This document shows, piece by piece, positions 3,138 to 26,857 of a stretch of DNA of 64,000 bases; within the stretch, counting starts at the first letter, position 1; each line of letters starts with the position of its first letter. The position numbers and the translations under genes were made by a program. Origin of the DNA: an uncultured Alphaproteobacteria bacterium (lineage in GTDB: Bacteria > Pseudomonadota > Alphaproteobacteria > Micropepsales > Micropepsaceae); contig CAIOFO010000010.1 of NCBI GenBank assembly GCA_903857685.1, positions 1 through 64,000 of the forward strand, in the 5' to 3' direction. The notes under the pieces were generated by a model. It did not search any database. It worked only from the letters and a program-made list of their open reading frames with translations, and was not told where the DNA came from.

Positions 3138-5408
3138 TTAGTTCTGCGGTCCCCGTGCCGTCGAAAGATAGTCCTGCATCTGGGTGATCTCATCTTCCGA
3201 GGCGGCCATGCCGAGCGCGGTCATGGCATCGATCAGGGAAGCCCATTGGCTGCGGGTATGGCGTTGGCTGGCCACGATGGAAATGTCGTGGCACTGGCTG
3301 CAAATGCGCACGGTGATGTCATGACCCGGTCCCGGCGGCATCCCGCCGGAAGGAATAGGACCGCTTGGCACCGCGGACCGCGTGGGCGCCGGGGCCGGAG
3401 CGCCGGCAGGCGCGGGCGACGCCATGGTGACGATCGTGGGCCCGGAATCGACGGCAAATGCGGTCAGTGAGTCATCGGCCAGCGGCGCTTCGGAAAACCC
3501 GCCGCCGGTTGTCACCACGGCCACATACTGTTTGCCATCCTTGCCTTCATAGGAGCTGGGCACGGAAATGGCAGAGGCGCCCATCTTCTGAGTCCAGACT
3601 TCCTTGCCGGTTTTCGCGTCGAAGGCACGGAAGCGTGCATCGTCGGTGGCGCCGATAAATACCAGGTCCCCTGCCGTGGCGATGGAGCCGCCCAGGCTTG
3701 GCCGGCCGGTGTTCTTCTTGTCGTCGGGCAGGGAATCGGTGACCCCCAGAGGCACGGTCCAGGCAATATCGCCGGTGTTGACGTTCACCGCGGTCAGCGA
3801 ACCCCAAGGCGGCTGATTGCACATCATGTTGGAGACCGGATCCTTGAAGCGGCCGCCATTGGGCATGTCGGTGTAAGGCACATTGGGATCGGCGAAGCGA
3901 CCCGGCGGCCCGCCGGCCGCGGCAGGGCTCGCAGGCCGGTTCTGAAAACCCTGTACTTGGCCGAGATCGTTGGTGTTGACGAAAAGATATCCAAGGGTGG
4001 GATCAAATGACGTGCCGCCCCAGTTTGCGCCGCCAATCGTTCCGGGGAACTGCACCCGCAGGCGATTGTAAGTCACCGGGACAAACGGGCCGTCCATTCG
4101 CAGATTGTTGTCGGCAATGAATTTGCGGCAATAGGCTTCCAGTTCCGGCGTCACGGTGGCGACGTCCGCCAGGCTCATGCTCATGCGCCCCAGGGGCTGG
4201 GGTTTCAGCGGGAAGGGCTGGGTGGGCCAGGCCTGCTCCAGGGGTGTGTCACTTTTGGGTACCGCCCGCTCTTCCACGCCGTAAATCGGCTTTCCCGTGA
4301 CGCGGTCGAGCAGGAAGAGAAGGGTTGTCTTGTTGATCACCGCGACCGCGGGAATCGCCTTGCCGTCATGCTTGACGTCTATCAGGGCAGGCGGCGCCTC
4401 CAGGTCGTAATCCCAGATGTCGTGATGCACGTCCTGGAAATGCCAGAGATACTTCCCCGTGCTGGCATCCACGGCGACCAGTGAACTGTCGAACAGATTG
4501 GCGCCCGCCCGGTCGCCGCCAAAGCGGTCGCTGGCAGGCGCGCCGAAGGGCAGATAGACGATTCCCCGCTTACTATCCACGGTCATGAACCCCCAGACAT
4601 TGGTGCCTGAGCGGCCCTTCCAGCTGTCGCCGCCCCAGGTGTCATGAAAGCGTTCGCCGGGCCGCGGCACCGAATGAAAAGTCCAGATCAATTTGCCGGT
4701 AATCACGTCCCAGCCGCGCACATCTCCCGCCGAGCCCAGGGTTGGCGCTTCCTGCGTGCGGCCGCCGGTAATGACGATGTTCTTGTAAATGACCGGGGGT
4801 GAAGAATAGCCGTCATTGGCGTTGGGGAAGCCGTTCAAGATTTCCGCTGTATTGGTGTTGAGTATCCCGTTTTCCCCAAAACCGGCGGCGGGTATGCCGG
4901 TCTTGGCATCCAGCGCGATCAGCTTGCCGTCGCTGGTGCCGAATATGATGCGGGGGGGATAGCCGGAAGAACCGGGCCAATATTCGACGCCGCGGGTCGC
5001 GGGCTGGCTGTTGCCGGACAGGTTATAGACCCAGACTTCCTTTCCCGAGATGGGGTCCAGCGCCACGACGCGATGATAGGGTGTCGTGATGTAGAGAATG
5101 CCGCCGATCACCAGGGGCGTGGCTTCGGATTCCGCAAATCGGGCGGGTGGGCCGCCGCGGCCCGCGGGATTGAAGCCCTGCTCCACGGCCGCGCCGGCCG
5201 GCTTCATGTGATAGACCCATGCCGGACTCAGCCGCGCAACATTGGCCGGCGTAATCTGGGTGAGGGGCGAAAAGCGCATGCCGCCCTCGTCATGCCCGTA
5301 GGTCGGCCATTCCCGCGATGCCGCCTGGGATTGCGCCTGGCCGCGCGCTCCATTGCCCAGCGCCACCAACGCTGTCGCCATCATCAGACCAAGTGCCAAG
5401 CGCTTCAT
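3138..5408 (-). CDS. Periplasmic PQQ-dependent dehydrogenase with C-terminal heme c domain
   Basis: This 756-residue quinoprotein belongs to the glucose/quinate/shikimate branch of PQQ dehydrogenases. A signal peptide (MKRLALGLMMATALVALG, then GARGQA) is followed by an eight-bladed propeller with repeated W-docking motifs (KEVWVYNLSG, GKLIWTFHSV, GKYLWHFQDVHHDIWDYD, KEVWTQKMG). A Pro/Ala-rich linker near residues 660-690 leads to a short cytochrome-like tail with one CSQCH heme motif. It lacks the five N-terminal membrane helices of classical quinate or glucose dehydrogenases, so it is soluble and passes electrons through its own heme. The substrate is unproven. The QsuD-like and dehydroquinase genes nearby make a hydroaromatic acid or cyclic polyol plausible. 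An operator-like site lies about 50 bases upstream. Confidence 0.88.
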   Translation of the reverse strand: MKRLALGLMMATALVALGNGARGQAQSQAASREWPTYGHDEGGMRFSPLTQITPANVARLSPAWVYHMKPAGAAVEQGFNPAGRGGPPARFAESEATPLVIGGILYITTPYHRVVALDPISGKEVWVYNLSGNSQPATRGVEYWPGSSGYPPRIIFGTSDGKLIALDAKTGIPAAGFGENGILNTNTAEILNGFPNANDGYSSPPVIYKNIVITGGRTQEAPTLGSAGDVRGWDVITGKLIWTFHSVPRPGERFHDTWGGDSWKGRSGTNVWGFMTVDSKRGIVYLPFGAPASDRFGGDRAGANLFDSSLVAVDASTGKYLWHFQDVHHDIWDYDLEAPPALIDVKHDGKAIPAVAVINKTTLLFLLDRVTGKPIYGVEERAVPKSDTPLEQAWPTQPFPLKPQPLGRMSMSLADVATVTPELEAYCRKFIADNNLRMDGPFVPVTYNRLRVQFPGTIGGANWGGTSFDPTLGYLFVNTNDLGQVQGFQNRPASPAAAGGPPGRFADPNVPYTDMPNGGRFKDPVSNMMCNQPPWGSLTAVNVNTGDIAWTVPLGVTDSLPDDKKNTGRPSLGGSIATAGDLVFIGATDDARFRAFDAKTGKEVWTQKMGASAISVPSSYEGKDGKQYVAVVTTGGGFSEAPLADDSLTAFAVDSGPTIVTMASPAPAGAPAPAPTRSAVPSGPIPSGGMPPGPGHDITVRICSQCHDISIVASQRHTRSQWASLIDAMTALGMAASEDEITQMQDYLSTARGPQN

Positions 5409-5613: not shown

Positions 5614-6453
5614 ATGAACGGCGCGATGATTGGAACATGTGTGTTGCCAAAACAGTTATTTTCCCTGGCGCATCTTACCGTGATGAACTGTCCGCCGCCG
5701 GAGATGACTTACCTGGCGGCGCGGGCGGGTTATGATTTTGTCAGCCTGCGCATCATTCCGATGGGGCTGCCGGGCGAGCCGCGCTATGAACTGTCCAAAG
5801 ACAGGGCCATGTTCCGGCAGACCAGGGCTGCGCTGGCCGAAACCGGCTTGCAATTGCTGGATATCGAGCTGGCGCGAATATTGAGCGGCGTGGATGTGAA
5901 GACCTATGTTCCCGCCATGGAAGTCGCGGTTGAGCTGGGGTGCCATCACTTGATCACCAGCGGCTGGTCTGCGGATCAAAGCCTGGTGCTCGACAAATTT
6001 TCCGAGCTTTGCGACCTGGCATTGCCGCTGGGCGTGACAGTGAATTTTGAACCAGTCGCCTTTGCTGATTTTGCCAGCCTGGCTTCGGTTTACGCCATTG
6101 TAAAAACCGCGGGGCGCCCCAATGGCGGCGTGCTGATCGATGCACTGCACTTTGCGCTCACCGGCACGAAGATTGCCGAATTGGCGGAAATTCCCGCCGG
6201 ACGCTTCCATCTGGCGCAACTTTGTGACGCCCGCTTGCCGCCGGGCGCCAGCCATGACGAGGAACTGGCCATCGCACGGGGCAAGAGGCTCTATCTGGGC
6301 GAGGGGGATATTGACGTTGCCGCGATTGCGGCCGGGCTGCCGCATATTCCATTTTCGCTGGAGATGCCCAACGCCGAGCGAGCCAAGAGCCTGGGCTATG
6401 AGGAATATGCCCGTCTCTGCCTGGCCGGTGCACGGCAATATTTCGGTGGTTGA
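5614..6453 (+). CDS. TIM-barrel isomerase/dehydratase-like protein, candidate 3-dehydroshikimate dehydratase
   Basis: This 279-residue xylose-isomerase-like TIM-barrel protein carries a complete divalent-metal site: Glu146 (VNFEPVAF), Asp176 and His179 (GVLIDALHF), Gln202 (HLAQLCD) and Glu250 (FSLEMPN). It is first in a unit with a quinate/shikimate-type dehydrogenase and a type II dehydroquinase. The fungal QutC/AsbF/QuiC dehydroshikimate dehydratases belong to the same fold, so that activity is a reasonable hypothesis, but an isomerase or epimerase is equally possible. No clear ribosome site precedes the ATG at 5614. The ATG at 5629 would lie close to the start of a transcript from the TAATAT box, so the true start is uncertain. 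Confidence 0.75.
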   Translation: MNGAMIGTCVLPKQLFSLAHLTVMNCPPPEMTYLAARAGYDFVSLRIIPMGLPGEPRYELSKDRAMFRQTRAALAETGLQLLDIELARILSGVDVKTYVPAMEVAVELGCHHLITSGWSADQSLVLDKFSELCDLALPLGVTVNFEPVAFADFASLASVYAIVKTAGRPNGGVLIDALHFALTGTKIAELAEIPAGRFHLAQLCDARLPPGASHDEELAIARGKRLYLGEGDIDVAAIAAGLPHIPFSLEMPNAERAKSLGYEEYARLCLAGARQYFGG

Positions 6454-6502
6454 AGCGCCCGCCATTACCGCCATAATCGACCACGCGTCAGGAACGAGCT
6501 CT

Positions 6503-7348
6503 ATGCAACAATTGTCGAGTGCAAAATTGAAGGTTGGCTTGATGGGCGAGGGCATCCAGTCCTCGCGCAGCCCATCGCTGCACATGGGCGAGGCGCAGGC
6601 GCTGGGTCTCAACCTCGACTATGAGCTGATTGACTTCGACAACATTCCGGGCGGCCACGCCATGTTCGAGAGCGTGCTGGCCGACCGCCAAAAACGGGGC
6701 TATCTGGGGGTGAATGTCACCCATCCCTTCAAGCAAACCGTGGTGGGTCTGCTGGATGAATTGTCGCCGGACGCCGCGGAAATGGGCTCGGTCAATACCG
6801 TTGTGTTCCGGAATGGACGCCGCATGGGCTTCAACACGGACTGGTCCGGTTACGCTGAGGCTTTCCGGCGGGAATTTTCCGATGTCGGCCTGGCACGTGT
6901 CGTCCAGCTGGGCGCCGGCGGAGCCGGAGTTGCCGTCGCCTATGCCCTACTGAAGCTGGGCACCGGACACCTTGTGCTGTTCGATCTGGACCAGGAGCGT
7001 GGACGCGCCGCTGTCGGCGCTCTGGCAAAGCTATTTCCCGGTCGGGTTTACCTGGGTGCCGATCTTGCGGCGGAAATCGCTTCCGCAGACGGTCTGGTCA
7101 ATTGCACGCCGGTCGGCATGGCGAAATATCCGGGGCTGCCGCTTCCGGAGGCCCTGCTACGCCCCTCACTCTGGGTTTCGGATGTCGTCTATTTCCCGCT
7201 GGAAACCGAACTGCTGAAAAAGGCCAGGGCGCTGGGGGCGCGGACGCTCAATGGCAGCGGCATGAACATCTTCCAGGGCGCCCAGGCATTTGCGCTCTTC
7301 ACCGGCGTACAGCCGGATCAGGAACGCATGCTGGCCAGATTTTCCTGA
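6503..7348 (+). CDS. Quinate/shikimate dehydrogenase, QsuD-like
   Basis: This 281-residue member of the shikimate dehydrogenase family catalyses NAD(P)-linked oxidation of a hydroaromatic hydroxyl. The catalytic pair Lys77 (NVTHPFKQ) and Asp113 (GFNTDWSGY) and the Rossmann motif GAGGAG (137-142) are present. The N-terminal substrate loop reads GEGIQSSRSPSLHM, not the biosynthetic GxPIxHSxSP. The C-terminus (DVVYFPLETELLKKARALGA) resembles catabolic quinate/shikimate dehydrogenases of the Corynebacterium QsuD type, as I recall them. The start ATG has ggaacgag upstream. Neighbouring dehydroquinase and catabolic context favour quinate/shikimate-like breakdown over aromatic amino acid biosynthesis. 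Confidence 0.85.
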   Translation: MQQLSSAKLKVGLMGEGIQSSRSPSLHMGEAQALGLNLDYELIDFDNIPGGHAMFESVLADRQKRGYLGVNVTHPFKQTVVGLLDELSPDAAEMGSVNTVVFRNGRRMGFNTDWSGYAEAFRREFSDVGLARVVQLGAGGAGVAVAYALLKLGTGHLVLFDLDQERGRAAVGALAKLFPGRVYLGADLAAEIASADGLVNCTPVGMAKYPGLPLPEALLRPSLWVSDVVYFPLETELLKKARALGARTLNGSGMNIFQGAQAFALFTGVQPDQERMLARFS

Positions 7349-7433
7349 CCTAGAATAAGCTCGCCTCGGCGCGCCAATAACCATTAAAGTGAGGCCGCCC
7401 GCAGGGCATGCGGTTTCAAGGATGGGGGTATCG

Positions 7434-7886
7434 GTGAAAAATATTCTGGTCTTGCATGGCGTCAATCTCAACATGTTCGGCAAGCGCGATCCGGCCGTCT
7501 ATGGGACCATGACCCTGGCGCAGATCGACGAGCAACTGGTCGCGCTGGGCAAGGAGTTGAACGTCGCCGTCACCACGTTTCAGAGCAATCTGGAAGGCGA
7601 AATGTGCAGTCGAATTCACCAGGCATTTCTGGACAAGATTGACGCCATCGTGATCAACGCGGGAGCCTGGACCCATTACAGCTACGCCCTGGGCGATGCG
7701 ATCGAATTGTTCAAGAACGGGGTCGTCGTCGAGGTGCACATGTCCAATGTCCACGCCCGCGACCCGTTCCGGCATTTTTCCGTCATGGCCAACTACGTCA
7801 AAGGTCAAATATGCGGCTTTGGCCCGGACAGCTATCTTCTTGGCTTGAGAGCGGCGGTAAACATCCTGGCGCGCGCCGGAACGTGA
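7434..7886 (+). CDS. aroQ: Type II 3-dehydroquinate dehydratase
   Basis: This 150-residue type II dehydroquinase interconverts 3-dehydroquinate and 3-dehydroshikimate. Family residues are visible: Asn11/Asn13 in GVNLN, Arg18, Tyr23 (AVYGTMTL), the QSNLEGEM segment, INAGAWTHYSYAL, Glu100/His102 in VEVHMSN, and Arg109/Arg113 in RDPFRH. The usual NGPNLN is HGVNLN here, a small divergence. A GTG at 7434 with AAGGA upstream gives the normal family length; longer starts at 7422 (ATG) or 7389 (GTG) are possible. It follows the QsuD-like gene by 85 bases. In Corynebacterium and Pseudomonas the same step feeds quinate catabolism. Confidence 0.9.
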   Translation: MKNILVLHGVNLNMFGKRDPAVYGTMTLAQIDEQLVALGKELNVAVTTFQSNLEGEMCSRIHQAFLDKIDAIVINAGAWTHYSYALGDAIELFKNGVVVEVHMSNVHARDPFRHFSVMANYVKGQICGFGPDSYLLGLRAAVNILARAGT

Positions 7887-11714: not shown

Positions 11715-11807
11715 AAACATAAGCGCCCGTTACAGGGCGGCGATTCGAATACTGGCCGCGCCGCCGCGGCTGACATGTCCCTGACCCCCTATGGGGAGTT
11801 ACCTGAA

Positions 11808-11839
11808 GCGCCGTGCGAGATTCGCACGGCGCTTTTTTT
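11808..11839 (+). terminator. Rho-independent terminator after the TonB receptor
   Basis: The arms GCGCCGTGCGA (11808-11818) and TCGCACGGCGC (11822-11832) are perfectly complementary over 11 bp around the loop GAT. Seven T residues follow at 11833-11839. It lies 94 bases after the receptor stop and before the tetR start, so it separates the two transcripts. Confidence 0.9.
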
Positions 11840-11916
11840 GGATTTTTAGTTCGGTAGCGACCCAAAAACACTTGACTGATGGATCGTCAGCAGACTCAAT
11901 CGTGAGAGAGGAGGGC

Positions 11917-12564
11917 ATGGTGGCAAAGCGGGTTCCAAAGCGCACGTCCCGGGCGAAAGACCCGGAACGGACCAAAAGCAACATCATTGATGTGGCGACA
12001 GCCGAATTCGCAGAACGCGGATTGTCTGGCGCGCGTGTGGACCGCATCGCCGAGCGGACTCAGACCAGCAAGAGAATGTTGTACTACTATTTTGGAGACA
12101 AAGAGGGCCTCTATCGCGCCGTACTGCTTTCCTATTATGAGCGACTTCGGTCATCCGAGACCGCCCTGGATCTCACGCATCAGGCGCCGTTGGCAGCTCT
12201 GAGGGCGCTTGTCGAATTCACCTTCGACTATCATATGAAGCATGCGTCCATTGTGCGCCTTGTCATGGTGGAAAACATTCACAAGGGCCGGCATGTCGCC
12301 AAGCTGCCATCGGTGACACCCATCAATTCCACAATTCTGGATTCGATGGCCGACATCATCCGGCGCGGGGCTGAGCAAGGGGTGTTGCGTGCTGAATTGA
12401 ACGCGTTCGATCTTTACACAACCATAGCGGCGCTGTGCTTTTTCAATGTTTCGAACCGCTATACGTTTCGGGCGATATTCCGCCACGACATGGGCGATTC
12501 CAAGGAAGCCGCCAAGCGCCGAATCTCAATATGGGATGTCGTGCATCGCTATGTCAGGACCTGA
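11917..12564 (+). CDS. TetR/AcrR family transcriptional regulator
   Basis: This 215-residue regulator has the TetR N-terminal helix-turn-helix (residues about 20-65: IIDVATAEFAERGLSGARVD, then TSKRMLYYYFGDKEGLY). The all-helical C-terminal domain probably binds a ligand and forms the dimer; it includes a segment typical of the TetR_C group with NIHKGRHV. The start is set by the strong agaggaggg site before the ATG at 11917. It is the only regulator inside the catabolic locus and so the first candidate to bind the palindromic words upstream of five neighbouring promoters. No such word precedes its own start. Confidence 0.88.
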   Translation: MVAKRVPKRTSRAKDPERTKSNIIDVATAEFAERGLSGARVDRIAERTQTSKRMLYYYFGDKEGLYRAVLLSYYERLRSSETALDLTHQAPLAALRALVEFTFDYHMKHASIVRLVMVENIHKGRHVAKLPSVTPINSTILDSMADIIRRGAEQGVLRAELNAFDLYTTIAALCFFNVSNRYTFRAIFRHDMGDSKEAAKRRISIWDVVHRYVRT

Positions 12565-13660: not shown

Positions 13661-13691
13661 TTGACACTAACTAGTTAGTACGGTGTATTTT
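13661..13691 (+). promoter_or_regulatory. Promoter with embedded palindromic operator, site A
   Basis: A TTGACA -35 hexamer (13661-13666) and TATTTT-like -10 (13686-13691; TGTATT at 13684 gives a 17-base spacer) flank the perfect 14-base palindrome ACTAACTAGTTAGT (13666-13679), followed by AC. The palindrome fills the spacer, the classic place for a steric repressor. It faces the MFS gene and lies about 80 bases upstream of the divergent thuA-like gene. Confidence 0.6.
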
Positions 13692-13868
13692 ACCTCAATA
13701 AACAGGGCTTTGGTGCAAAAAACCAGCCCCAGGAAACGTCTTGTTTTTCACATCCGCGGGGGGCCCGTTCCGCCCAGCCTTGCTGCCCCTGGCAGCGCAG
13801 ATGATGATCGAAAAAATGCGCGGTGCAAAACGCGGTTTCGTAACGATGGTTTGAAGGGGGATGTCGCG

Positions 13869-15176
13869 ATGAACGGGGAGAATTCTGTAGCCTTGAAGGC
13901 CGGCGGCCGCAGCCACACGCGGCTGATCATTTTGGCACTCGTCACTGTCGCAACCCTCATCAACTATCTGGACCGCACCGTCATGGGGATCGCTGGCCCC
14001 CTGATTGCCCACGACCTTGCCATAGGTCCGGCGGTTATGGGCCTGGTGTTTTCCGCCTTTTCCTGGAGCTATGCCCTGGCGCAGATCCCCGGCGGGGTTT
14101 TTCTGGACCGTTTCGGCACGCGCACAACCTATTCGCTTTCACTGCTGCTGTGGTCCTGCGTCACGGCATTGCTGGGCTTCGCGTCGGTTGTGGGCTGGCT
14201 CATCGGATGCCTGTTGGGTCTTGGCGTGTTTGAGGCGCCCTGCTATCCCGCTAACAGCCGTATCCTGAGCATCTGGTTTCCCCAGCAGGAACGCGCCAGC
14301 GCCACGGGGGTTTACTCCGTCGGCCAATATGCCGGCCTGGCGCTTTTCAGCCCGGTTCTGTTCTGGATCACGGGAAATTTCGGCTGGCGCGCGCTGTTCT
14401 TCTGCGTGGGGGCGGTGGGTATTCTGTTCAGCGCCATCATGTATCTGGCCTATCGCGATCCCGACAAAAGCCGGCTGGTCAATCAGGCCGAGCTCGATCA
14501 CATCGCTGCGGGGGGCGGCCTGGGCCAAAAAGGCGCGCGCATGAATTTTTCCTGGCGCAATGTCCGCCAGCTGCTGCGACACAGACAGATCGTGGGCGCA
14601 TCCCTGGGCCAATTCTGCAGCAATTCCACCCTGGTGTTCTTCCTCACCTGGTTTCCGACCTATTTGGCAACCGAGCGGCACATGAGCTGGATCAAGTCCG
14701 GATTTTCCGCGGTCCTTCCCTATTTGGCGGCGTCCATCGGGGTTTTGATGGGCGGAATTTTTTCGGATTTCCTCCTGCGCCGTACCGGCTCTGCCAACAT
14801 TGCGCGCAAAATACCGATCGTCACCGGCCTTCTGATGGCGTCGACCATCGTTAGCGCCAATTACATCTCGGACAATGCCGTGGTCATTGCAGTGATGTCG
14901 TTTGCCTTTTTCGGCCAGGGCATGTGCAATCTGGGATGGACCGTGATCGCCGACATCGCGCCCAAGAAACTGATGGGACTGACCGGCGGGTTGTTCAATT
15001 TCTGCGCCAACCTGGCGGGAATTTGCACGCCGCTGGTGGTCGGTTTTCTGGTGAGCGCCACCGGATCCTTCTTTGGCGGATTGGCCTATATCGCCACCTT
15101 GGCGCTTCTGGGAGTGGTTTGTTATGTCGTAATTCTGGGCGATATTCACCGGCTGGATATTGAACTACCCGATTGA
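13869..15176 (+). CDS. MFS transporter, anion:cation symporter type
   Basis: This 435-residue major facilitator protein has about twelve membrane segments and the opening LITLINYLDRTVMGIAGPLI-like signature of the ACS family (hexuronate, galactarate, phthalate and sulfoacetate carriers). Also visible are SWSYALAQIPGGVFLDRFGT (loop 2-3) and ANSRILSIWFPQQERASATG. It would bring a carboxylate across the inner membrane by cation symport. The ATG at 13869 with gaaggggga upstream is preferred over the long N-terminal extension from 13683. The downstream acylating dehydrogenase gene starts 301 bases later with its own operator-like site. The acid transported is probably the cluster's substrate; its identity is unknown. 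Confidence 0.85.
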   Translation: MNGENSVALKAGGRSHTRLIILALVTVATLINYLDRTVMGIAGPLIAHDLAIGPAVMGLVFSAFSWSYALAQIPGGVFLDRFGTRTTYSLSLLLWSCVTALLGFASVVGWLIGCLLGLGVFEAPCYPANSRILSIWFPQQERASATGVYSVGQYAGLALFSPVLFWITGNFGWRALFFCVGAVGILFSAIMYLAYRDPDKSRLVNQAELDHIAAGGGLGQKGARMNFSWRNVRQLLRHRQIVGASLGQFCSNSTLVFFLTWFPTYLATERHMSWIKSGFSAVLPYLAASIGVLMGGIFSDFLLRRTGSANIARKIPIVTGLLMASTIVSANYISDNAVVIAVMSFAFFGQGMCNLGWTVIADIAPKKLMGLTGGLFNFCANLAGICTPLVVGFLVSATGSFFGGLAYIATLALLGVVCYVVILGDIHRLDIELPD

Positions 15177-15477
15177 CCGACGGCCCCGGCCGACTGCTCC
15201 GTAAGTAACTGATATATATACATAATTACACAAACCAGCGCGCCCTGCCTTCGGCAAAAAACGTTGTGGCTTTGGTGCATTCGCTAATATACTAGTTAGT
15301 ACATTCTGCCGAGAGCAGAAGGTCGCTTCATCGGGCAGGGGAAGAGAAGGAACAGCATGGCGCACGCCCCGAAACGCCATGCTTCTCACCGGCCCGGCTG
15401 CCACGCGCGCCCGATCGCACGCGGCCGACGGAACCGGACTGCCGCAATCTAATCAGGACATTTCGCAGGAGTTGGTT
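15177..15477. other. Intergenic promoter region before the CoA/ThDP operon
   Basis: These 301 bases hold an AT-rich tract (TGATATATATACATAATTA, near 15207-15225), a candidate -10 TAATAT at 15285-15290 and the operator-like word at 15289-15302. Downstream is an unexplained leader of about 170 bases. A ribosome site gcaggag precedes the ATG at 15478. No hairpin with a T tract, riboswitch or short gene was convincing. Confidence 0.45.
15289..15302 (+). promoter_or_regulatory. Operator-like site B, upstream of the CoA/ThDP operon
   Basis: ATACTAGTTAGTAC contains the 12-base word ACTAGTTAGTAC (15291-15302), identical to the one at 13670-13681. The following ATTC is shared with the copy at 5457. 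It overlaps or directly follows a possible -10 box, about 180 bases before the acylating aldehyde dehydrogenase start. Confidence 0.6.
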
Positions 15478-16887
15478 ATGGCGCCCCGAACAATCACCGA
15501 CGAGGAAAAACAGATCGTCAAGGATCTGGTGGCGCGTGCGCGCATCGCGATGAAGCAGATTGCCGATTACGACCAGGCCAAGGTTGACCGGTTGATTCAG
15601 GCGGTGTGCTGGGCGCTCTCAAATGAAAAAACCTTCACCCGGCTCTCCAACATGGGGGTCGACGAAAGCGGCTTGGGCGACCGCGCCGGGCGTCCCAACA
15701 AGCGTTTCAAGCTGCACGGCATCCTGCGCGATGCGCTACGCGCCAAGTCGATGGGCATTGTGGAAGAAGACCATGCCAAGGGAATCGTCAAATATGCCAA
15801 ACCGGTTGGCGTCATTGCCAGCCTGGTTCCGGTTACCAATGCCGGTCATACCGAAGTCGGCAACGGCATTTACTCCCTGAAGTGCAAGAACGCGATTATT
15901 TTCGCGCCGCATCCGGCCGGCAAGAAAACCAGCATCGAGGCGGTGCGCATCATGCGAGAGACCGTCAAGAAGCTGGGCTGTCCGGAAGACGTGTTCCAGA
16001 TCATCGAAAAACCCTCCATCCCGTTGGCGCAGGAGTTGATGGCGCAGTGCGATCTGACGATCGCCACCGGAGGCCAGCAGATGGTCCGCGCCGCCTATTC
16101 ATCGGGCAAGCCCGCCTATGGCGTGGGGGCGGGCAACGCCACCATGGTGATCGACGAGACTGCCGATATAGACATCGCCGCGAAAAATACCCGCATTTCC
16201 AAAACGTCCGACAACGGTTCGGGCTGCTCGGCCGACGGCAATCTGCTGGTGGATTCGCGCATCTTTGACCGGTTTTTGGACGCGCTGCAAAAGGAAGGCG
16301 GCTATCTGGTTACGCCCGACGAAAAGAAACTTCTGCAGAAAGCGATGTGGGACGAGGAAAATCACCGCACCGCCAATACCATCGCTCGCCCCGCAAAGGT
16401 CATTGCTGAAATTGCGGGCTTCAAGATTTCCGAAGGCAAGAGCTTCCTGATCGTGCCGGAATCCCATATCGGAAAAGAATATCTGTTCTCTTCCGAGAAA
16501 TTGTCTCCGGTGCTGTCCATCATCAAATATGAAGGCTTCGACGAAGCCCTGACGAAGGTCGAGCAGATTTACGAAGTTGGCGGCAGGGGCCATTCCTGCG
16601 GCATCTATTCCCACGATGACAACCATATTCATCGCCTGGCGTTGCTGGCGCCCGTCAGCCGCATGATGGTTCGCCAGCCCCAATCCAAAGCCAATGCCGG
16701 CGCCTGGGACAATGGCATGCCGATGACCTCGTCCATGGGTTGCGGCATCTGGGGCGGCAATATCACTAATGAGAATGTCAATGTCAGGCACTATATGCAG
16801 CTGACCTGGGTCAGCCGTCCCATCCCCGAAGATCGTCCGTCGGAACAGCAATTGTTCGGCGAATTCTACAACACTGAAACCCCTTGA
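15478..16887 (+). CDS. CoA-acylating aldehyde dehydrogenase
   Basis: This 469-residue aldehyde dehydrogenase belongs to the acylating EutE/AdhE/SauS group, which converts an aldehyde, NAD(P)+ and CoA to an acyl-CoA or the reverse. The catalytic Cys250 lies in KTSDNGSGCSADG, the group's usual position. The segment KYAKPVGVIASLVPVTNAGH is the nucleotide-binding entry, and there is no general-base Glu in an ELGG motif, as expected for this group. Its closest recalled relatives are sulfoacetaldehyde dehydrogenases (acylating), but no sulfonate genes are nearby. The start ATG is preceded by gcaggag. It is first of six head-to-tail genes. Substrate candidates are small aldehydes such as glyoxylate, malonate semialdehyde or glycolaldehyde; this is not decidable here. 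Confidence 0.85.
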   Translation: MAPRTITDEEKQIVKDLVARARIAMKQIADYDQAKVDRLIQAVCWALSNEKTFTRLSNMGVDESGLGDRAGRPNKRFKLHGILRDALRAKSMGIVEEDHAKGIVKYAKPVGVIASLVPVTNAGHTEVGNGIYSLKCKNAIIFAPHPAGKKTSIEAVRIMRETVKKLGCPEDVFQIIEKPSIPLAQELMAQCDLTIATGGQQMVRAAYSSGKPAYGVGAGNATMVIDETADIDIAAKNTRISKTSDNGSGCSADGNLLVDSRIFDRFLDALQKEGGYLVTPDEKKLLQKAMWDEENHRTANTIARPAKVIAEIAGFKISEGKSFLIVPESHIGKEYLFSSEKLSPVLSIIKYEGFDEALTKVEQIYEVGGRGHSCGIYSHDDNHIHRLALLAPVSRMMVRQPQSKANAGAWDNGMPMTSSMGCGIWGGNITNENVNVRHYMQLTWVSRPIPEDRPSEQQLFGEFYNTETP

Positions 16888-16893
16888 TATCCC

Positions 16894-18378
16894 ATGGCGG
16901 AGAATTTCAAACGTTACGGCCATTATATCGGGGGCAAGGAAGTTCCTCCGGCGGACGGCGTTTATTTTCCGACAGAAGATCCCTACACCGGCAAAGCCTG
17001 GGCGGAAATCGCGCGCGGACGTGAAGCGGACGCGAATGCAGCGGTTGCCTCGGCGCACGGGGCCTTTATCGATGGTGCCTGGCCCGCCATGACAGCCACC
17101 GAGCGCGGCAAGTTGCTGCGTAAGGTGGGCGATCTGATCATCGCCAAGGCGGAGCGGCTGGCGGCTATTGAGCGCCGCGACAACGGCAAGCTTGCCGCCG
17201 AAGTCAGCAGGCAGATCCGCTACATGGCGGAATATTTCTATTATTACGCCGGCATGGCCGACAAGATCGAGGGAAAGGTCATCCCGACCGACAAGCATGG
17301 CGTATTCGCCTATACCAAGAATGAACCCAAGGGCGTGGTCGCGATCATCACCCCCTGGAATTCGCCGCTGACCCTGACAAGCTGGAAGCTGGCGCCGGCG
17401 CTGGCGGCGGGCTGCACTGCGGTGGTCAAGCCCTCCGAGTTCACGTCCGCCTCGATGGTGGAATTCGCAGCCTTGTTCAAGGAGGCCGGTTTTCCCGACG
17501 GTGTGGTCAATGTCGTCACCGGCTTCGGCGCCGAAGTCGGTGTGCCATTGGTGTCTCACCCCGATGTCGCGCATGTCGGTTTCACCGGCGGCGAGGCTGC
17601 CGGCATCGCGATCTATCAGCTTGCGGCCAAGGGTCTGAAAACCGTTACGCTGGAGCTGGGCGGCAAATCCCCCAATATCGTGTTCGACGACGCCGATCTC
17701 GACCAGGCCGTCAAAGGCGTGGTTTCGGGCATTTTTGCGGCGGCGGGTCAGACCTGCGTGGCCGGCTCGCGCCTGCTGGTGCAGGAAAACATCCATGACG
17801 AATTTGTGGCCCGGCTGGTGGCTTTTGTGAAAGACGCCAAGCTGGGCGATCCGGGCCTTGCCGAGACGCAGATCGGCCCGATCGCCACACGGCCGCAGTT
17901 CGACAAGATCATGTCCTATATCGCCATCGCCAAGGGCGAGGGCGCCTTATGCGTCCTGGGGGGAAAATCGCGGCCCGATCTGGGCGCCGGCCAGTTCGTC
18001 GAACCCACAATCTTCACCGGTGTCGACAACAAGATGCGCATTGCCCAGGAAGAAGTGTTCGGCCCTGTCCTCAGTGTCATCAAATTCAAGGATGCGGACG
18101 ACGCAATCAAGATCGGCAATGATGTGCTGTATGGCTTGGCCGCCGGCGTCTGGACCAAGAGCCTGGATCGCGCCATGAAGCTGGCTGACAAGCTGCTGGC
18201 GGGCAATATCTGGGTCAACAATTACCGCGCCACCAGCTTCACGTCGCCATTCGGCGGGTTCAAGCGATCGGGCGTTGGCCGGGAATCCGGCACCAATGCG
18301 ATGGACGAATTCTTCGAAGTCAAATGCGTCTGGATCTCGACTGATCTGGACGTCCCCAACCCCTTTATCCGGCGCTAG
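16894..18378 (+). CDS. NAD(P)+-dependent aldehyde dehydrogenase
   Basis: This 494-residue classical aldehyde dehydrogenase has Asn in the TPWNSPL motif, Glu254 (VTLELGGKSPN) as general base and Cys288 (AAGQTCVAGSR) as nucleophile. The C-terminal WVNNYRATSFTSPFGGFKRS segment is complete. It oxidises an aldehyde to a free acid. It begins 6 bases after the acylating dehydrogenase stop, without an obvious ribosome site, and 8 bases separate it from the CoA-transferase. Two aldehyde dehydrogenases of different chemistry in one operon suggest either two aldehyde intermediates or two fates of one aldehyde. Confidence 0.9.
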   Translation: MAENFKRYGHYIGGKEVPPADGVYFPTEDPYTGKAWAEIARGREADANAAVASAHGAFIDGAWPAMTATERGKLLRKVGDLIIAKAERLAAIERRDNGKLAAEVSRQIRYMAEYFYYYAGMADKIEGKVIPTDKHGVFAYTKNEPKGVVAIITPWNSPLTLTSWKLAPALAAGCTAVVKPSEFTSASMVEFAALFKEAGFPDGVVNVVTGFGAEVGVPLVSHPDVAHVGFTGGEAAGIAIYQLAAKGLKTVTLELGGKSPNIVFDDADLDQAVKGVVSGIFAAAGQTCVAGSRLLVQENIHDEFVARLVAFVKDAKLGDPGLAETQIGPIATRPQFDKIMSYIAIAKGEGALCVLGGKSRPDLGAGQFVEPTIFTGVDNKMRIAQEEVFGPVLSVIKFKDADDAIKIGNDVLYGLAAGVWTKSLDRAMKLADKLLAGNIWVNNYRATSFTSPFGGFKRSGVGRESGTNAMDEFFEVKCVWISTDLDVPNPFIRR

Positions 18379-18386
18379 GAGGAACG

Positions 18387-19589
18387 ATGACGGCTCCCCT
18401 TGCCGGAATTCGCGTTATCGATGTCACCAATGTGCTGGCGGGGCCTTTCTGCACCTATCAGCTTGCGTTGCTGGGCGCCGACGTGATCAAGGCGGAAACG
18501 CCGGGCACCGGCGACCTGGCACGCCAGCTTGGCGCCGATCCCAAGCTCAGCAAGATACATATGGGCGCCTCGTTCCTGGCGCAGAATGCGGGCAAGCGGT
18601 CCATCACGATCAATCTGAAATCCGAAGGCGGAAAGGAAATTTTCCGGCGGCTGGTCAAACAGGCGCATGTGGTGGTTGAGAATTTCCGTCCCGGGGTAAT
18701 GGACCGGCTGGGCGTGGGTTATGAGGCCCTGAAAAAAATCAATCCCAAGCTGGTCTATTGCGCCTTGTCGGGTTTTGGCCAGGACGGACCGATGCGGGAT
18801 GCCCCGGCTTATGACCAGATTATCCAGGGGCTGTCGGGCGCCATGAGCATCACGGGCGACCAGGAGAGCGCCCCGTTGCGCGTGGGTTACCCCGTTTGCG
18901 ACAGCGTCGGCGGGATTACTGCCGCATTCGCCATCGCCGCCGCCCTGGTGGGGCAGGAACGTGGCGGGGAAGGTCGCTTCATCGATGTCGCCATGCTGGA
19001 TTCGACCATCGCCACCATGGGCTGGGTAGTGTCCAACTATCTGATCACCGGCCAGGTGCCCATTCCCATGGGCAACGACAATTTTACCGCCGCGCCGTCC
19101 GGAACCTTCAAGACCGGCGATGGGCTGCTGAATATTTCGGCCAACAAGCAGGAGCAGTTTTTGGCGCTTACCGAAGTAATCGGCCGGGCCAAGCTCGCGG
19201 TCGACCCGCGCTTTTCCGAACGTGAAGCGCGCAAGAAAAATCGTCAGGCACTGACCGATGAAATAGAGCCCGTGCTGGCGACGCGCAGCGCTGCAGAATG
19301 GGAGATCGCCTTCAACAAGGCCGGCATCCCGGCAGGCCGCGTCCTCAGCGTGCCGGAGGCATTGACGCTGCCAAATACCAGGCACCGTAAATTGCTGCGC
19401 ACGGTCGAGGGCACCAAGGGGTTAGACCGGCCGCTCACCGTGATGAATGGTGGCTATATTGTGTCGGATTGCGATGACGCGTCAAAATTGCCGCCACCCG
19501 GGCTGGGCGAGCATACCGAGCAGATCATGGCGGAGCTGGGCTATTCTCCCGCAGAGATCGCGCAAAGCCGAGAGAGCAAAGAGATATGA
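18387..19589 (+). CDS. CaiB/BaiF class III CoA-transferase
   Basis: This 400-residue class III CoA-transferase moves CoA between carboxylic acids through an aspartyl-CoA intermediate. The likely catalytic Asp205 lies in the FIDVAMLDST motif, matching Asp169 of formyl-CoA transferase. The N-terminal IRVIDVTNVLAGPFCTYQLA and the NLKSEGGKEIFRRLVKQAHVV segments are typical. A strong taggagg site precedes the ATG. The stop overlaps the start of the citryl-CoA-lyase-like gene (ATGA), so translation is coupled. That makes it likely that the transferase loads a polycarboxylate with CoA for the lyase. Confidence 0.9.
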   Translation: MTAPLAGIRVIDVTNVLAGPFCTYQLALLGADVIKAETPGTGDLARQLGADPKLSKIHMGASFLAQNAGKRSITINLKSEGGKEIFRRLVKQAHVVVENFRPGVMDRLGVGYEALKKINPKLVYCALSGFGQDGPMRDAPAYDQIIQGLSGAMSITGDQESAPLRVGYPVCDSVGGITAAFAIAAALVGQERGGEGRFIDVAMLDSTIATMGWVVSNYLITGQVPIPMGNDNFTAAPSGTFKTGDGLLNISANKQEQFLALTEVIGRAKLAVDPRFSEREARKKNRQALTDEIEPVLATRSAAEWEIAFNKAGIPAGRVLSVPEALTLPNTRHRKLLRTVEGTKGLDRPLTVMNGGYIVSDCDDASKLPPPGLGEHTEQIMAELGYSPAEIAQSRESKEI

Positions 19590-20419
19590 GCGAAAAAACC
19601 CCCGAAGAATTGCTGGCAGAGGCCAAGGCCTATTGGACCACCAGTATCATCGATATTCATCCCGGCAAGATCGCCATGCGCGGTTATCCGATCCAGGACC
19701 TGATCGGAAAAATCACCTTTCCGCAGATGATCTGGCTGATGCTGCGCGGCGACCTGCCGAACGCAATGCAGGCAAAATTGCTGGACGCCGCCCTGGTGGC
19801 GTCGGTTGATCACGGGCCGCACGCCCCGTCCATTGCCATCGCCCGCATGGCGGCGACGACCGGCGTCGAACTCAACAATGTCATGGCGTCGGCCATCAAT
19901 GTCCTGGGTACCGTGCATGGCGGCGCGGGGCAGGAATGCATGCAGTTGTACGAGATCATTGCTGCAAATCCCAAGTCGGAAAAAGACCTTCCCGGCGCCG
20001 TGGATGATGCGCTGGCCGAGTTTGTCGCGGAGCATGGAAAGATCATCCCGGGTTTCGGTCATCGTTTTCATCCCATTGATCCACGCTGCGCGCCGCTGTT
20101 TGCCCTCATTGACCAGGCCCGCGAGGCCGGTGTGGTAACGGGGCGTTATGCCGTTATCGGCAGGGAGGTCGAAGCGGGCATCAAGCGGCGCAGCGGCAAG
20201 CCCATCCCGATGAACATAGACGGCATTACGGCGGTGATTTTCTGCGAGCTGGGCTTTGCGCCGCCATTGGGGCGCGGTCTTTTCATTCTTTCACGGTCTG
20301 TCGGCATCCTCTCCCATGCCTGGGAAGAGATCAGCCATGGATCGCGCATGAAGGGCCCGATGCCCAAATCCATTCCCTATACCTATGACGGACCAAAAGG
20401 CCCGCGCAAACCCGAATAG
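19586..20419 (+). CDS. Citryl-CoA lyase-like protein (citrate synthase fold)
   Basis: This 277-residue protein resembles the citrate-synthase-like lyase domain of ATP-citrate lyase and the free citryl-CoA lyase subunit. All three catalytic positions are present: His111 (GTVHGGAGQE), His159 (PGFGHRFHP) and Asp212 (NIDGITAV). It is shorter than citrate synthase, fitting a lyase or aldol-type CoA enzyme without the large N-terminal domain. Next to a class III CoA-transferase it probably cleaves, or forms, a 3-hydroxy-acyl-CoA such as citryl-, citramalyl- or malyl-CoA into an oxo acid and an acyl-CoA. Which one is unknown. Confidence 0.83.
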   Translation: MSEKTPEELLAEAKAYWTTSIIDIHPGKIAMRGYPIQDLIGKITFPQMIWLMLRGDLPNAMQAKLLDAALVASVDHGPHAPSIAIARMAATTGVELNNVMASAINVLGTVHGGAGQECMQLYEIIAANPKSEKDLPGAVDDALAEFVAEHGKIIPGFGHRFHPIDPRCAPLFALIDQAREAGVVTGRYAVIGREVEAGIKRRSGKPIPMNIDGITAVIFCELGFAPPLGRGLFILSRSVGILSHAWEEISHGSRMKGPMPKSIPYTYDGPKGPRKPE

Positions 20420-20437
20420 CGAGTTGAGGAGCTTAAG

Positions 20438-22195
20438 ATGCAAGAGTTGGTTTCAAAGCAGCTGGTAAAATACCTGGAAGGGCGCGGCGTCACGCATATT
20501 TTTGGCCTGTGTGGCCATACCAATATCGCGGTCTTGACCGAGATCGGAAAAAGCTCGATCCGCTTCGTCAATTCGCGCCACGAGCAGATCGCGGCGCATG
20601 CCGCCGATGGCTATGCCCGTGTGACGAAAAAGGCCAGCGTCGTGCTCTCCCATCTTGGACCGGGACTGACCAACGCCGCCACCGGCGTCGCGACGGCGGC
20701 GCTGGATTCCATACCGATGGTGGTGATTGCCGGGGACATTCCCAGTCACTATTACGGCAAGAACCCGCATCAGGAAATCAATTTGCACTCGGACGCCGCC
20801 CAGTTCGAGATCTACAAACCTTTTGTAAAGCGCGCATGGCGCGTGGAACGGGCCGATCTGCTGCCCGACATCATCGACAAGGCGTTCCACTTGGCCGAAA
20901 GCGGTCGCCCCGGACCGGTACTGGTATCCGTGCCGATGGATATTTTCTCTGCCAAGATCGACACCGCCCTTTTCGAGCGCATCAAGCCCAATGCAATGTC
21001 CTATGCCAAACCGTCACTGGATGAGACGGTGGCGGAAAAGATCGTCGCCATTCTGCTCGCCGCCAAGAAGCCGCTGATCTATGCCGGCGGCGGCGTCATG
21101 CTGGCGGATGCGAATGCCGAACTGGCGCAATTTGTCGACCGGCTGGGAATTCCCGTGGCGCATTCGCTGATGGGCAAAGGCGTATTGCCGGACGATCATC
21201 CCTTCGTGCTGGGCATGACCGGTTTCTGGGGCACCCAATACATCAATGATTCCTGCCGCACCGCCGACGTCATTCTGGCTTTGGGTACGCGCTTCTGCGA
21301 AGCCGATTGCAGCTCCTTTGACCCGGAATATACCTTTGCCATTCCGCCGACCCGCCTGATTCATATCGACATCGATCCGGCCGAAATCGGCCGCAATTAT
21401 CCGGTCGAGATCGGCGCCGTCGCGGACCTGAAACAGGCGCTGGTGGCGCTCAATCGCATCGCCAAGAAAGCCGCGCCGGACGGGCGGCGCAATGAGCCGC
21501 TGCGCAAGGAAATTGCCGCCTATCGTGCGGAGTTCAAAGCGAGCCGCGCCGAAGCCGAAACATCCAGCCAGTTCCCGATGCGCCCGGAACGCATTCTGGC
21601 GGATGTGCGCGCCGTGCTGCCGCGCGACGCAATCATTACCACCGATGTCGGCTGGAACAAGAACGGCGTGGGACAGCAATTTCCCGTCTACACGCCGGGT
21701 TCGGTCCTGACACCGGGCGGTTATGCCACCATGGGCTTCGGCGCGCCGGCGGCGATCGGCGCCAAAATCGCGGCTCCCGACAAGGTTGTTGTCTCACTGG
21801 TCGGAGACGGCGGTTTTGGGCAGAACCCTGCCTTGCTCGCCACCGCCTTTGAAGAAGACACGGCAGTCGTGTGGATCATCATGAACAACCGCGCCTTTGG
21901 AACCATTGCCGGGCTGCAAAAGGCGCATTACGGCACCACGACAGGCACGGTCTTCGAGAAGAATGGCACGCCCTATTCGCCGGATTTTGCTGCCGTCGCG
22001 AGGGCTTACGGCATAGACGGTGTGCGCATTGAATCGGCGGATCAGTTCAAGCCCGCGCTGGAAGCGGCCATCAAGGCCAATGTGCCATATGTACTGGACG
22101 TGACCATGGAGAATGCGCCGGTTCCCACCTCCGGCCATTGGAACATCATGGATATCTATTCCCCGGGCAGGAAGGTCCACCACGTTTCCACCTGA
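20438..22195 (+). CDS. ThDP-dependent enzyme, acetolactate synthase-like
   Basis: This 585-residue member of the ThDP-dependent 2-oxoacid decarboxylase/carboligase superfamily has three domains. The catalytic Glu49 sits in SRHEQIAAHAADGYAR; the middle domain contains MLADANAELAQFVDRLGIPV; the ThDP/Mg motif is GDGGFGQNPALLATA followed by IIMNN. It decarboxylates or ligates a 2-oxo acid. The sequence does not match sulfoacetaldehyde acetyltransferase, oxalyl-CoA decarboxylase or glyoxylate carboligase closely enough to choose one. The gagg site precedes the ATG by a normal distance. After the lyase gene it could take the released 2-oxo acid to an aldehyde for the two dehydrogenases upstream. 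Confidence 0.85.
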   Translation: MQELVSKQLVKYLEGRGVTHIFGLCGHTNIAVLTEIGKSSIRFVNSRHEQIAAHAADGYARVTKKASVVLSHLGPGLTNAATGVATAALDSIPMVVIAGDIPSHYYGKNPHQEINLHSDAAQFEIYKPFVKRAWRVERADLLPDIIDKAFHLAESGRPGPVLVSVPMDIFSAKIDTALFERIKPNAMSYAKPSLDETVAEKIVAILLAAKKPLIYAGGGVMLADANAELAQFVDRLGIPVAHSLMGKGVLPDDHPFVLGMTGFWGTQYINDSCRTADVILALGTRFCEADCSSFDPEYTFAIPPTRLIHIDIDPAEIGRNYPVEIGAVADLKQALVALNRIAKKAAPDGRRNEPLRKEIAAYRAEFKASRAEAETSSQFPMRPERILADVRAVLPRDAIITTDVGWNKNGVGQQFPVYTPGSVLTPGGYATMGFGAPAAIGAKIAAPDKVVVSLVGDGGFGQNPALLATAFEEDTAVVWIIMNNRAFGTIAGLQKAHYGTTTGTVFEKNGTPYSPDFAAVARAYGIDGVRIESADQFKPALEAAIKANVPYVLDVTMENAPVPTSGHWNIMDIYSPGRKVHHVST

Positions 22196-22244: not shown

Positions 22245-24140
22245 ATGCGACGATCCATAGCGACGGTTTCACTCAGCGGCACGCTGGAGGAGAAACTGGA
22301 GTCTGTCGCTGCTGCCGGGTTTGACGCCGTCCACATTTCAGACAGCGATATCCTCTACTATGGGGATACGCCGCATTCCGTGAAAAGCTTGGCTGGCGAC
22401 CTTGGCCTTGCGATCGATGCTTATCAACCGCTGCGTGATCTTGAAGGCTTGGACGATCAGGCTTTTCGCAAGAACCTGGACCGGATCAAGCGCAAATTCG
22501 ACCTGATGGCGGAATTGGGCGCTCCGCTTGCCTTGATATCCGCCTCGACCCTGACGTCAAGTTCGAGCGATCATGAGCGCATTGCCGCGCAACTGCGCAC
22601 GGTCGCGGAATTGGCGGCGCAGCGGGACATCAGGCTGGCATATGGTGCACTGAGCTGGGCGGCCCATATCCGCGACGTGGCGCAGGCCTGGGAAATCGTT
22701 CAGCGTGTCGGCAGCCCCCAGCTTGATCTGTTCATCAACGCCTTTCAGATGTTGGCGACGGGGACAACGTCTCAGAATCTTCGCGAAATCCCGGGTGCCC
22801 GAATTGCAGCCGTCCTGCTCGCGGACGCGCCCCTGGTGACGATCGATCCGGTGAGCAAAAATCGGTTCTACAGCTGCTTTCCGGGCGAAGGGGACCTGGA
22901 CCTGACGGCATTCGTTCAGGCGGTTCTGAAGACAGACTATACCGGAGCGCTCACGCTTGAAGTCTTCAATGAGGCATTTCGCAGTTCTTCTTCCCGCCAG
23001 ATTGCCGATGACGGCATGCGCTCGCTGCGTCTGCTTGAGGAGAATGTGCGGCTTGCGACATCGGGGGATCAGGCGAAGGTCGCATTGTTCGATCCGCCGC
23101 CGCCCGCGAAGGTGTCCGGCGTGGAATTCCTGGAATTTGCCGCTTCCGGCGCGGATGCCGAGGCGCTGGACAGTTGGTTCACCAGCTTTGGTTTTCACAA
23201 GCTGGGCAAGCATCGCAGCAAGAACGTATTTTTGTACCGCAACGGCCGCGTCAACCTGGCGCTGAATTCCGAACCCGACTCATTCGCGCACTCCTATTAC
23301 CTGATGCACGGGCCATCGGTCTGCGCTATCGGCCTGCGTACCGACGATGATCAGCGTGCCCTGTCACGCGCGCTGACGTTTAACGCAACGCGGTATGAAG
23401 GGCGTGTCGGGCCCAACGAGCTCAGTATTCCGGCCATTCGCGGCCTGGACGGCAGCTTGATATATTTCGTCGCTGAGCATGACGCCAAGAATCTCTATGA
23501 AATAGAGTTTGCCATCGAGCCGTCCAAGGACGGCTCGAACGCCTTGCTTGAGGCTGTTGATCATCTGGCGTTGTCGCTCCCCTCCGGCCAGATGGATTCG
23601 CGGGTCTTGTTCTATCGCGCCGTGCTGGGTTTCGAGGCGGATGCAACCTTCCTTCTGGCCGATCCCAACGGATTGGTGAAAAGCCGCGCGGTGTCTTCCC
23701 GGGGACATTCCGTGCGCATCCCGCTCAATACCTCGGTGGGTCAACTTACCGGGACGGCGCGCCAGGTCAGCACGCAAGGCGGGGCGGCCGTTCATCATGT
23801 GGCTTTTGAGTGTGACGATATTTTCGCCACGGTGGCTTCGCTGCGCAAATCGGGCGCCAGGCTGCTCGATATTCCGGCGAATTATTATGAGGACCTGGCG
23901 GCGCGCTTCGATCTGAAAGATGAATTCACCGCCAAATTGAAAAGCGCGCATATCCTTTACGACCGGATCGGCAAGGGCGAATTTCTGCACGTCTACAGCG
24001 AACCTTTTCAGGACCGCTTCTTTTTCGAGTTTGTCCAGCGCACCGACGGATATGACGAATATGGCGCCGCCAACGCTCCGTTCCGCATGGCCGCCATTGC
24101 CCGGCTGCAACGCGCCCGCGACAGACTCAATGTGATGTAA
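22245..24140 (+). CDS. QsuB/QuiC1-like fusion (TIM barrel + HPPD-like VOC) with degenerate dehydratase metal site
   Basis: At 631 residues this has the length and layout of QsuB/QuiC1 3-dehydroshikimate dehydratase: a TIM barrel (1-270, opening RRSIATVSLSGTLEEKLE) and a 4-hydroxyphenylpyruvate-dioxygenase-like VOC part (290-631). The four metal ligands of Pseudomonas QuiC1 are, as I recall, Glu134, Asp165, Gln191 and Glu239. Here the same positions are Gly134, Asn165, Leu191 and Glu239, and the nearby His168 is Gln. The barrel therefore should not bind Mg the normal way. The VOC half keeps its triad His440, His518 and Glu595. The ATG at 22245 has caggag upstream. It may be a dioxygenase-type enzyme or a regulatory relic; it is unlikely to be an ordinary dehydratase. 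Confidence 0.82.
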   Translation: MRRSIATVSLSGTLEEKLESVAAAGFDAVHISDSDILYYGDTPHSVKSLAGDLGLAIDAYQPLRDLEGLDDQAFRKNLDRIKRKFDLMAELGAPLALISASTLTSSSSDHERIAAQLRTVAELAAQRDIRLAYGALSWAAHIRDVAQAWEIVQRVGSPQLDLFINAFQMLATGTTSQNLREIPGARIAAVLLADAPLVTIDPVSKNRFYSCFPGEGDLDLTAFVQAVLKTDYTGALTLEVFNEAFRSSSSRQIADDGMRSLRLLEENVRLATSGDQAKVALFDPPPPAKVSGVEFLEFAASGADAEALDSWFTSFGFHKLGKHRSKNVFLYRNGRVNLALNSEPDSFAHSYYLMHGPSVCAIGLRTDDDQRALSRALTFNATRYEGRVGPNELSIPAIRGLDGSLIYFVAEHDAKNLYEIEFAIEPSKDGSNALLEAVDHLALSLPSGQMDSRVLFYRAVLGFEADATFLLADPNGLVKSRAVSSRGHSVRIPLNTSVGQLTGTARQVSTQGGAAVHHVAFECDDIFATVASLRKSGARLLDIPANYYEDLAARFDLKDEFTAKLKSAHILYDRIGKGEFLHVYSEPFQDRFFFEFVQRTDGYDEYGAANAPFRMAAIARLQRARDRLNVM

Positions 24141-24896: not shown

Positions 24897-24897
24897 T

Positions 24898-26757: not shown

Positions 26758-26857
26758 CGCGTTCTGATTTTCGCCTGGTGGAATGGACCAAACGGTACAC
26801 AAGAATGCCGCAGCCGGTAAGCGCCCCAAATAATGTTGCAATAGCGGTCTGCATCAT
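26735..26857 (-). CDS. Possible 40-residue single-span membrane peptide
   Basis: An ORF from an ATG at 26857 encodes a helix TAIATLFGALTGCGILVYRL and a charged tail HSTRRKSERDEH. It lies in the 216-base gap before the MFS gene and runs 23 bases into the TPR/oxygenase gene, from which it is read in another frame on the same strand. The hydrophobic-then-basic layout is like real small membrane proteins, but there is no supporting homology. It may be chance. Confidence 0.2.
   Translation of the reverse strand: MMQTAIATLFGALTGCGILVYRLVHSTRRKSERDEHCSTD

Follow-up and report, generated by a model that had tools for sequence, protein, structure and literature searches.

A QuiC1-type fusion protein with a presumably defunct dehydratase half and a conserved HPPD-like half in a candidate alternative quinate/shikimate gene cluster

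The fusion gene and its neighbours

The window (the whole stretch of DNA that was analysed, 64,000 nucleotides from an uncultured alphaproteobacterium) carries a gene for a QuiC1/QsuB-type fusion protein together with the other genes collected in Table 1. The frame of the fusion is stop-free on translation; an alternative start lies further upstream, at 22113, and homology begins only at M22245. Its N-terminal half (residues ~1-276) holds an AP_endonuc_2 barrel (PF01261, residues 19-262), its C-terminal half (~287-631) an HPPD N-terminal module (PF14696, 287-422) and a VOC module (PF00903, 438-560). The closest solved structure is Pseudomonas putida QuiC1 (PDB 5hmq; phmmer, 623 bits over residues 1-625). 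The top NCBIfam match is QuiC (NF042435, residues 1-627): at 692 bits it lies below the equivalog cut-off of 1200, as do the scores of relatives whose ligands are intact (557-791 bits). The two-domain layout of QuiC1 and of Corynebacterium glutamicum QsuB, a TIM barrel joined to HPPD-like VOC modules, is present at full length, with the same VOC triad, and quinate/shikimate genes nearby are a further common feature. Unlike both proteins, the window fusion has a ThDP/CoA-lyase module and a second, free-standing TIM barrel encoded alongside it.

Table 1. Features of the window (coordinates are window positions)
Feature	Coordinates	Strand	Remarks
PQQ-dependent dehydrogenase, glucose/quinate/shikimate type	3138..5408	-	C-terminal cytochrome c-like tail
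Stand-alone TIM barrel, TIM2	5614..6453	+	complete metal-site pattern E146, D176, Q202, E250; candidate dehydratase
Shikimate/quinate dehydrogenase, AroE-like	6452..7348	+	true start inside open frame; conserved in related clusters
Type II 3-dehydroquinate dehydratase, AroQ	7425..7886	+	
TetR-type regulator	11791..12564	+	orthologues in the clusters of five genomes
MFS transporter	13683..15176	+	conserved in cluster
Acylating aldehyde dehydrogenase-like (ALDH-like), SauS/EutE type	15472..16887	+	478.7 bits to NF047625, cut-off 600
Aldehyde dehydrogenase (ALDH)	16894..18378	+	
Class III CoA-transferase	18387..19589	+	
Citryl-CoA lyase-like protein	19586..20419	+	NF004864, 425.6 bits, cut-off 261; candidate citryl/homocitryl-CoA lyase
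ThDP (TPP)-dependent enzyme	20438..22195	+	ALS-like fold, GHTN motif; candidate C-C cleaving dione hydrolase
QuiC1/QsuB-type fusion	22245..24140	+	631 aa; N half xylose-isomerase-like TIM barrel, C half HPPD-like double VOC

From 15472 onward the genes for the acylating ALDH, ALDH, CoA-transferase, lyase-like protein, ThDP enzyme and fusion follow one another in the same direction, no more than ~50 bp apart; the PQQ dehydrogenase, TIM2, AroE and AroQ genes lie further upstream. The stretch 15472-22195 may constitute a new quinate/shikimate catabolic operon, whose core is found in 13 alphaproteobacterial genomes and partly also on a plasmid of a betaproteobacterium. The metal set of TIM2 is of the full xylose-isomerase type, with E146, D176 and E250 invariant in 10 of 10 orthologues, and its profile matches among solved proteins are Lmo2234, IolI, QuiC1 and AsbF. 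Placed next to AroE and AroQ, TIM2 is the best candidate for the cluster's working dehydratase. In the ThDP enzyme GHTN occupies the place of GHGN in annotated IolD proteins and of GG in the aligned acetolactate-synthase-like proteins.

Beyond the fusion, and convergent with it, lie a methyltransferase-like gene and a TPR protein (24150-26841, minus strand). The same pair also follows the fusion of a related genome, G026 (L031:7047-9699), with 66% and 43% identity to the window's.

The two halves of the fusion compared

The dehydratase active site of QuiC1 and QsuB consists of R64, L97, E134, L136, D165, H168, Q191, S206, R210 and E239 (PMC7442255). At these ten positions the window protein has R, L, G, L, N, Q, L, N, S and E: four residues are retained and six substituted (E134G, D165N, H168Q, Q191L, S206N, R210S). 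E239 alone remains of the metal ligands E134, D165, Q191 and E239, and the losses extend to H168, S206 and R210. The initial annotation had read G134, N165, Q168, L191 and E239 by position against Pseudomonas QuiC1, and its numbering proves exact: phmmer aligns the five with E, D, H, Q and E of 5hmq, free of gaps near the ligands. Equally exact is its placing of H440, H518 and E595 in the HPPD-like half, where they align to H, H and E of 5hmq. We infer that the window fusion is a QuiC1-type protein which has ceased to act as a 3-dehydroshikimate dehydratase. The sequences thus support what had been proposed for it, a probably dead or altered dehydratase coupled to an apparently intact VOC iron site.

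Could the barrel still dehydrate dehydroshikimate with its ligands shifted? The retained E239 would fit such a scheme, but new acidic residues shared by the window's clade occur only at 110 and 255, neither of them a ligand position, and no convincing compensating acid was found in the N half. With six of the ten active-site residues gone as well, a working barrel with displaced ligands is very improbable.

Forty-five sequences were compared: the window protein and P. putida QuiC1, a further 39 from loci of the genome collection and four obtained by searching whole genomes. E134, D165, H168, Q191 and E239 are all kept in 41 of 41 relatives outside the window's clade, which comprises four proteins (window, G026, G020, G031) of a single genus. 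Within that clade E134 has become G, L, L and L, in the same order, and D165 has become N in all four. R64, L97, L136 and E239 are kept throughout, H168 everywhere except in the window protein, and Q191 in two of the other three (G031 has P). The substitutions are conserved in orthologues, then, only in part: the losses of E134 and D165 are clade-wide, while H168Q and Q191L, given that the nearest relatives keep H168, are further steps taken by the window protein. Chance or misalignment can be ruled out as the origin of the pattern (the alignment is gap-free around all ligands and the 41 other relatives are conserved), and so can a lone bad gene or a sequencing fault (ten genomes in two clades are affected).

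Sites invariant in the canonical proteins have been lost heavily from the N half (17/48 in the window protein, 10/48 in G026, 13/48 in G020) and not at all from the C half (0/25 in each of these); Fisher p for the difference is 0.0003, 0.013 and 0.003, respectively. When canonical proteins are left out one at a time, at most four such N-half sites are lost. (A technical point: the loci were collected with C-half peptide patterns, and residues of these patterns were dropped from the counts to control for collection bias.) Sequence identity is reversed in the same sense. Canonical QuiC1 pairs are more alike in the N half than in the C half in 98% of cases; in the window clade the C half is the more alike in every pair (0.63 vs 0.48, 0.60 vs 0.47 and 0.88 vs 0.79), and this also holds for every pair in a second ligand-less clade, described below. 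The protein had been put forward as a natural inversion that might disclose what the second domain does, and conservation is indeed inverted.

Is the whole gene perhaps vestigial, selection having relaxed after a change of pathway, with the C half "merely" lagging behind? The N half does go on losing conserved sites, and two genomes (G051, G257) have the cluster without the fusion gene. But the C half has given up none of its 25 invariant sites, dN/dS is low in both halves (~0.10 for the N half and 0.07 for the C half between G026 and G020, the two closest relatives), and both the open frame and its position in the cluster have been kept in diverged lineages. Wholesale decay of the gene is accordingly quite improbable. 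The N half, for its part, is not decaying freely; it is still constrained.

The window C half matches HPPD/VOC families and retains the His-His-Glu triad H440/H518/E595. This triad is invariant in 51 of 51 C halves compared, which argues for chemistry of the C half. An identification with HPPD itself was rejected: the score of 190.8 bits is below the TIGR01263 equivalog cut-off of 277, and many residues that are invariant in HPPD differ, as they do in all QuiC1 proteins. HPPD-likeness is shifted weakly between the C halves of ligand-less and other proteins (206 vs 175 bits; p = 0.011, uncorrected for relatedness). A separate HPPD gene was not found in the window's genome, G000, with a full-length query; G020, G026 and G031 have one.

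The dehydratase ligands were lost at least twice

Dehydratase ligands are lost in 10 of 10 QuiC-type fusions from alphaproteobacterial genomes that have the set of TIM2, ThDP enzyme and acylating ALDH (G000, G020, G026, G031, G212, G309, G367, G402, G763 and G676). A C-half tree (51 rows, IQ-TREE; INDEPENDENCE) places these proteins in two clades: the window clade shares a large group with P. putida QuiC1, and the second clade groups with the QuiC proteins of G098/G099. Two changes are forced by well-supported branches, and a single origin appears in 0% of bootstrap trees; some long branches leave details of the tree unsure. Loss of the dehydratase ligands has therefore happened at least twice independently. 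Two such events are few, yet both are in genomes that bear the module.

The six fusions found outside the window's genus (G212, G309, G367, G402, G763, G676) are all ligand-less and all have the VOC triad; that of G309 sits beside the lyase gene, on another contig. Erosion of the barrel has gone further in some of them: most of its active site is deleted or changed in G212, G309 and G367, and Pfam misses the barrel in G367 and scores it below threshold in G212, the VOC half scoring normally in both.

These proteins bear on whether the N half is inert or has instead taken up a new and different catalytic role, metal-free or through what remains of H168, Q191 and E239. An N-half dN/dS of only 0.10 is more constraint than a mere leftover needs and so counts against an inert remnant; the residues kept across the window clade point the same way, as does the recurrence of D165N in both ligand-less clades. 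The other remaining active-site residues differ between the clades, however, the window protein lacks H168 and Q191 too, and the three eroded barrels retain little of an active site, so that a new catalytic role for the N half is unlikely.

Within the genus (G020, G026, G031, G051, G008) identity to the window's proteins is 80-87% for the ThDP enzyme, 82-95% for the acylating ALDH and 66-77% for the lyase, and the clusters mostly also have TIM2, AroE and the PQQ dehydrogenase. ThDP-enzyme orthologues (64-87%) occur in 12 other genomes altogether, and one also on an Azoarcus plasmid. Those outside the genus (64-66%) were found in 6 of 385 genomes of the class and 5 of 398 of the phylum, the window's own counted in both, and the TIM2, acylating ALDH and ThDP genes are mutually adjacent in 7 of 7 out-of-genus genomes. 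Acylating-ALDH orthologues (59-95%) adjoin the TPP gene or lie within the same cluster of related genomes. Some clusters have the acylating ALDH where others have an ALDH with the CoA-transferase; this interchange implies a sequence of aldehyde, acyl-CoA and lyase.

Within the searched flanks of 37 canonical QuiC1 loci there is no ThDP orthologue, CCL, TIM2 or acylating ALDH. Nonomuraea has the ThDP enzyme, lyase and CoA-transferase, with no TIM2 seen nearby, and its QuiC1 keeps all ten residues. Three genomes (G051, G257, G008) have the module without the fusion; the fusion, or its VOC half, is therefore accessory rather than essential to the route.

A possible non-aromatising route and the role of the second half

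The reading we prefer, at a probability of roughly 0.6, is that the first half is dead and the second still serves a function, within an alternative quinate/shikimate cluster. Because another TIM barrel of the cluster has an intact metal site, the first half looks to have been replaced while the second was retained: dehydration may have passed, in this lineage, to the metal-dependent TIM2. The HPPD-like half would have been kept for a metal-dependent function of its own, with the dead barrel as its structural or oligomerising partner. The cluster probably bypasses protocatechuate, and an active dehydratase would then send carbon to a dead end. We offer as support for such a diversion that intradiol (PF00775) and LigB (PF02900) dioxygenases gave no match in G020, G402 and G008 (genomes 93-95% complete). 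The presence of PcaGH-type dioxygenases in several genomes of the second clade counts against the reading.

What might the route be? IolE, IolD/cyclohexanedione hydrolase and citryl-CoA lyase are established enzyme classes for the chemistry it would need. 1) Quinate would be oxidised to 3-dehydroquinate. 2) TIM2 would remove the C5 hydroxyl in the manner of IolE, yielding 1-hydroxy-3,4-dioxocyclohexane carboxylate, a 3,4-dione that could not aromatise unless the C1 hydroxyl were also lost. 3) The ThDP enzyme would open the ring between the carbonyls, like IolD or cyclohexanedione hydrolase, to homocitrate semialdehyde. 4) The acylating ALDH, or ALDH plus CoA-transferase, would form homocitryl-CoA. 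5) The citryl-CoA lyase-like protein would release acetyl-CoA and 2-oxoglutarate. The proposal is carbon-balanced exactly (C7 to C2 + C5). Signs in its favour are the GHTN motif of the ThDP enzyme, the interchange of the acylating ALDH with ALDH plus CoA-transferase, and the gene run on an Aminobacter plasmid described below. Taken alone, this exact route from quinate to acetyl-CoA and 2-oxoglutarate is given somewhat less than an even chance on present analysis. The fuller proposition is held tentatively, at rather less than even odds: a quinate/shikimate route not previously described, non-aromatising and O2-independent, beside which the QuiC1 fusion, having lost its dehydratase on two occasions, persists on account of its VOC half. 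Searches of the literature that combined quinate with homocitrate or with citryl-CoA lyase, or homocitryl-CoA with lyase, gave nothing relevant, most subscription journals lying outside the search.

The cluster shares with IolE (a TIM-barrel dehydratase) and IolD (a ThDP trihydroxycyclohexanedione hydrolase) the hallmark of a metal-site TIM barrel adjoining a ThDP enzyme with a GHxN motif. The pairing, on a keto-cyclitol, is analogous, but the ThDP enzyme is only ~25-28% identical to IolD, and the presumed substrate is a carboxylated cyclitol.

Alternatively, the protocatechuate route might have been kept, with TIM2 as a new dehydroshikimate dehydratase and the VOC half of the fusion as the missing ring-cleaving dioxygenase. 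The meta-cleavage product (e.g., 4-carboxy-4-hydroxy-2-oxoadipate) would then pass by ThDP-dependent decarboxylation to citrate semialdehyde, and on through citryl-CoA to acetyl-CoA and oxaloacetate. Retention of a dioxygenase-like VOC half would be explained and the lyase would become a true citryl-CoA lyase; the TIM2 profile does match the dehydratases QuiC1 and AsbF, and G051, which is without the fusion, has a strong LigB match. Yet the dehydrogenase, lactonase and hydratase that would be required are not recognised in the clusters, and the set occurs without the VOC fusion in G257 and G051. QsuB, moreover, left protocatechuate unchanged, although MgCl2 but no iron is listed for that assay (PMC7442255). 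A retained protocatechuate route is unlikely on balance.

The role of the HPPD-like domain in QuiC1 and QsuB is unknown, and a need for it in assembly has been proposed for QsuB (PMC7442255). Since the VOC half persists whether or not the dehydratase works, either its substrate should be one that both routes share or the half should serve assembly. If catalytic, it would act at the level of dehydroquinate/dehydroshikimate or on a by-product, a compound in common with the classical route, because classical QuiC1 proteins keep the VOC half as well. The dehydratase may mask activity of the second domain in assays of QuiC1 and QsuB; nature has supplied, in the ligand-less fusions, forms expected to be active in the second half alone, so that the role of this domain can be put to a direct test. 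Quinate and shikimate are abundant in plants, and the neighbouring genes hint at a possibly new pathway for their breakdown in which no aromatic ring is made.

Related gene runs are found on plasmids. Azoarcus sp. KH32C plasmid pAZKH (NC_020548.1, 601390-608904; L135:23391-30905) has an operon-like run of aroD, aroE, ThDP enzyme, lyase, CoA-transferase, TIM barrel and VOC ("4-HPPD") genes. The ThDP enzyme is 72%, the citryl-CoA lyase 67% and the CoA-transferase 67.5% identical to the window's; the counterparts of the two QuiC1 halves, in contrast, are separate short genes, and the VOC gene is shorter, its second His apparently absent. Plasmid pUSP3 of Aminobacter sp. MSH1 (L155:5052-11206) has a Gfo/Idh dehydrogenase, a TIM barrel, a ThDP enzyme (40% identical to the window's) and an ALDH in a row; this run resembles another iol-like cyclitol operon.
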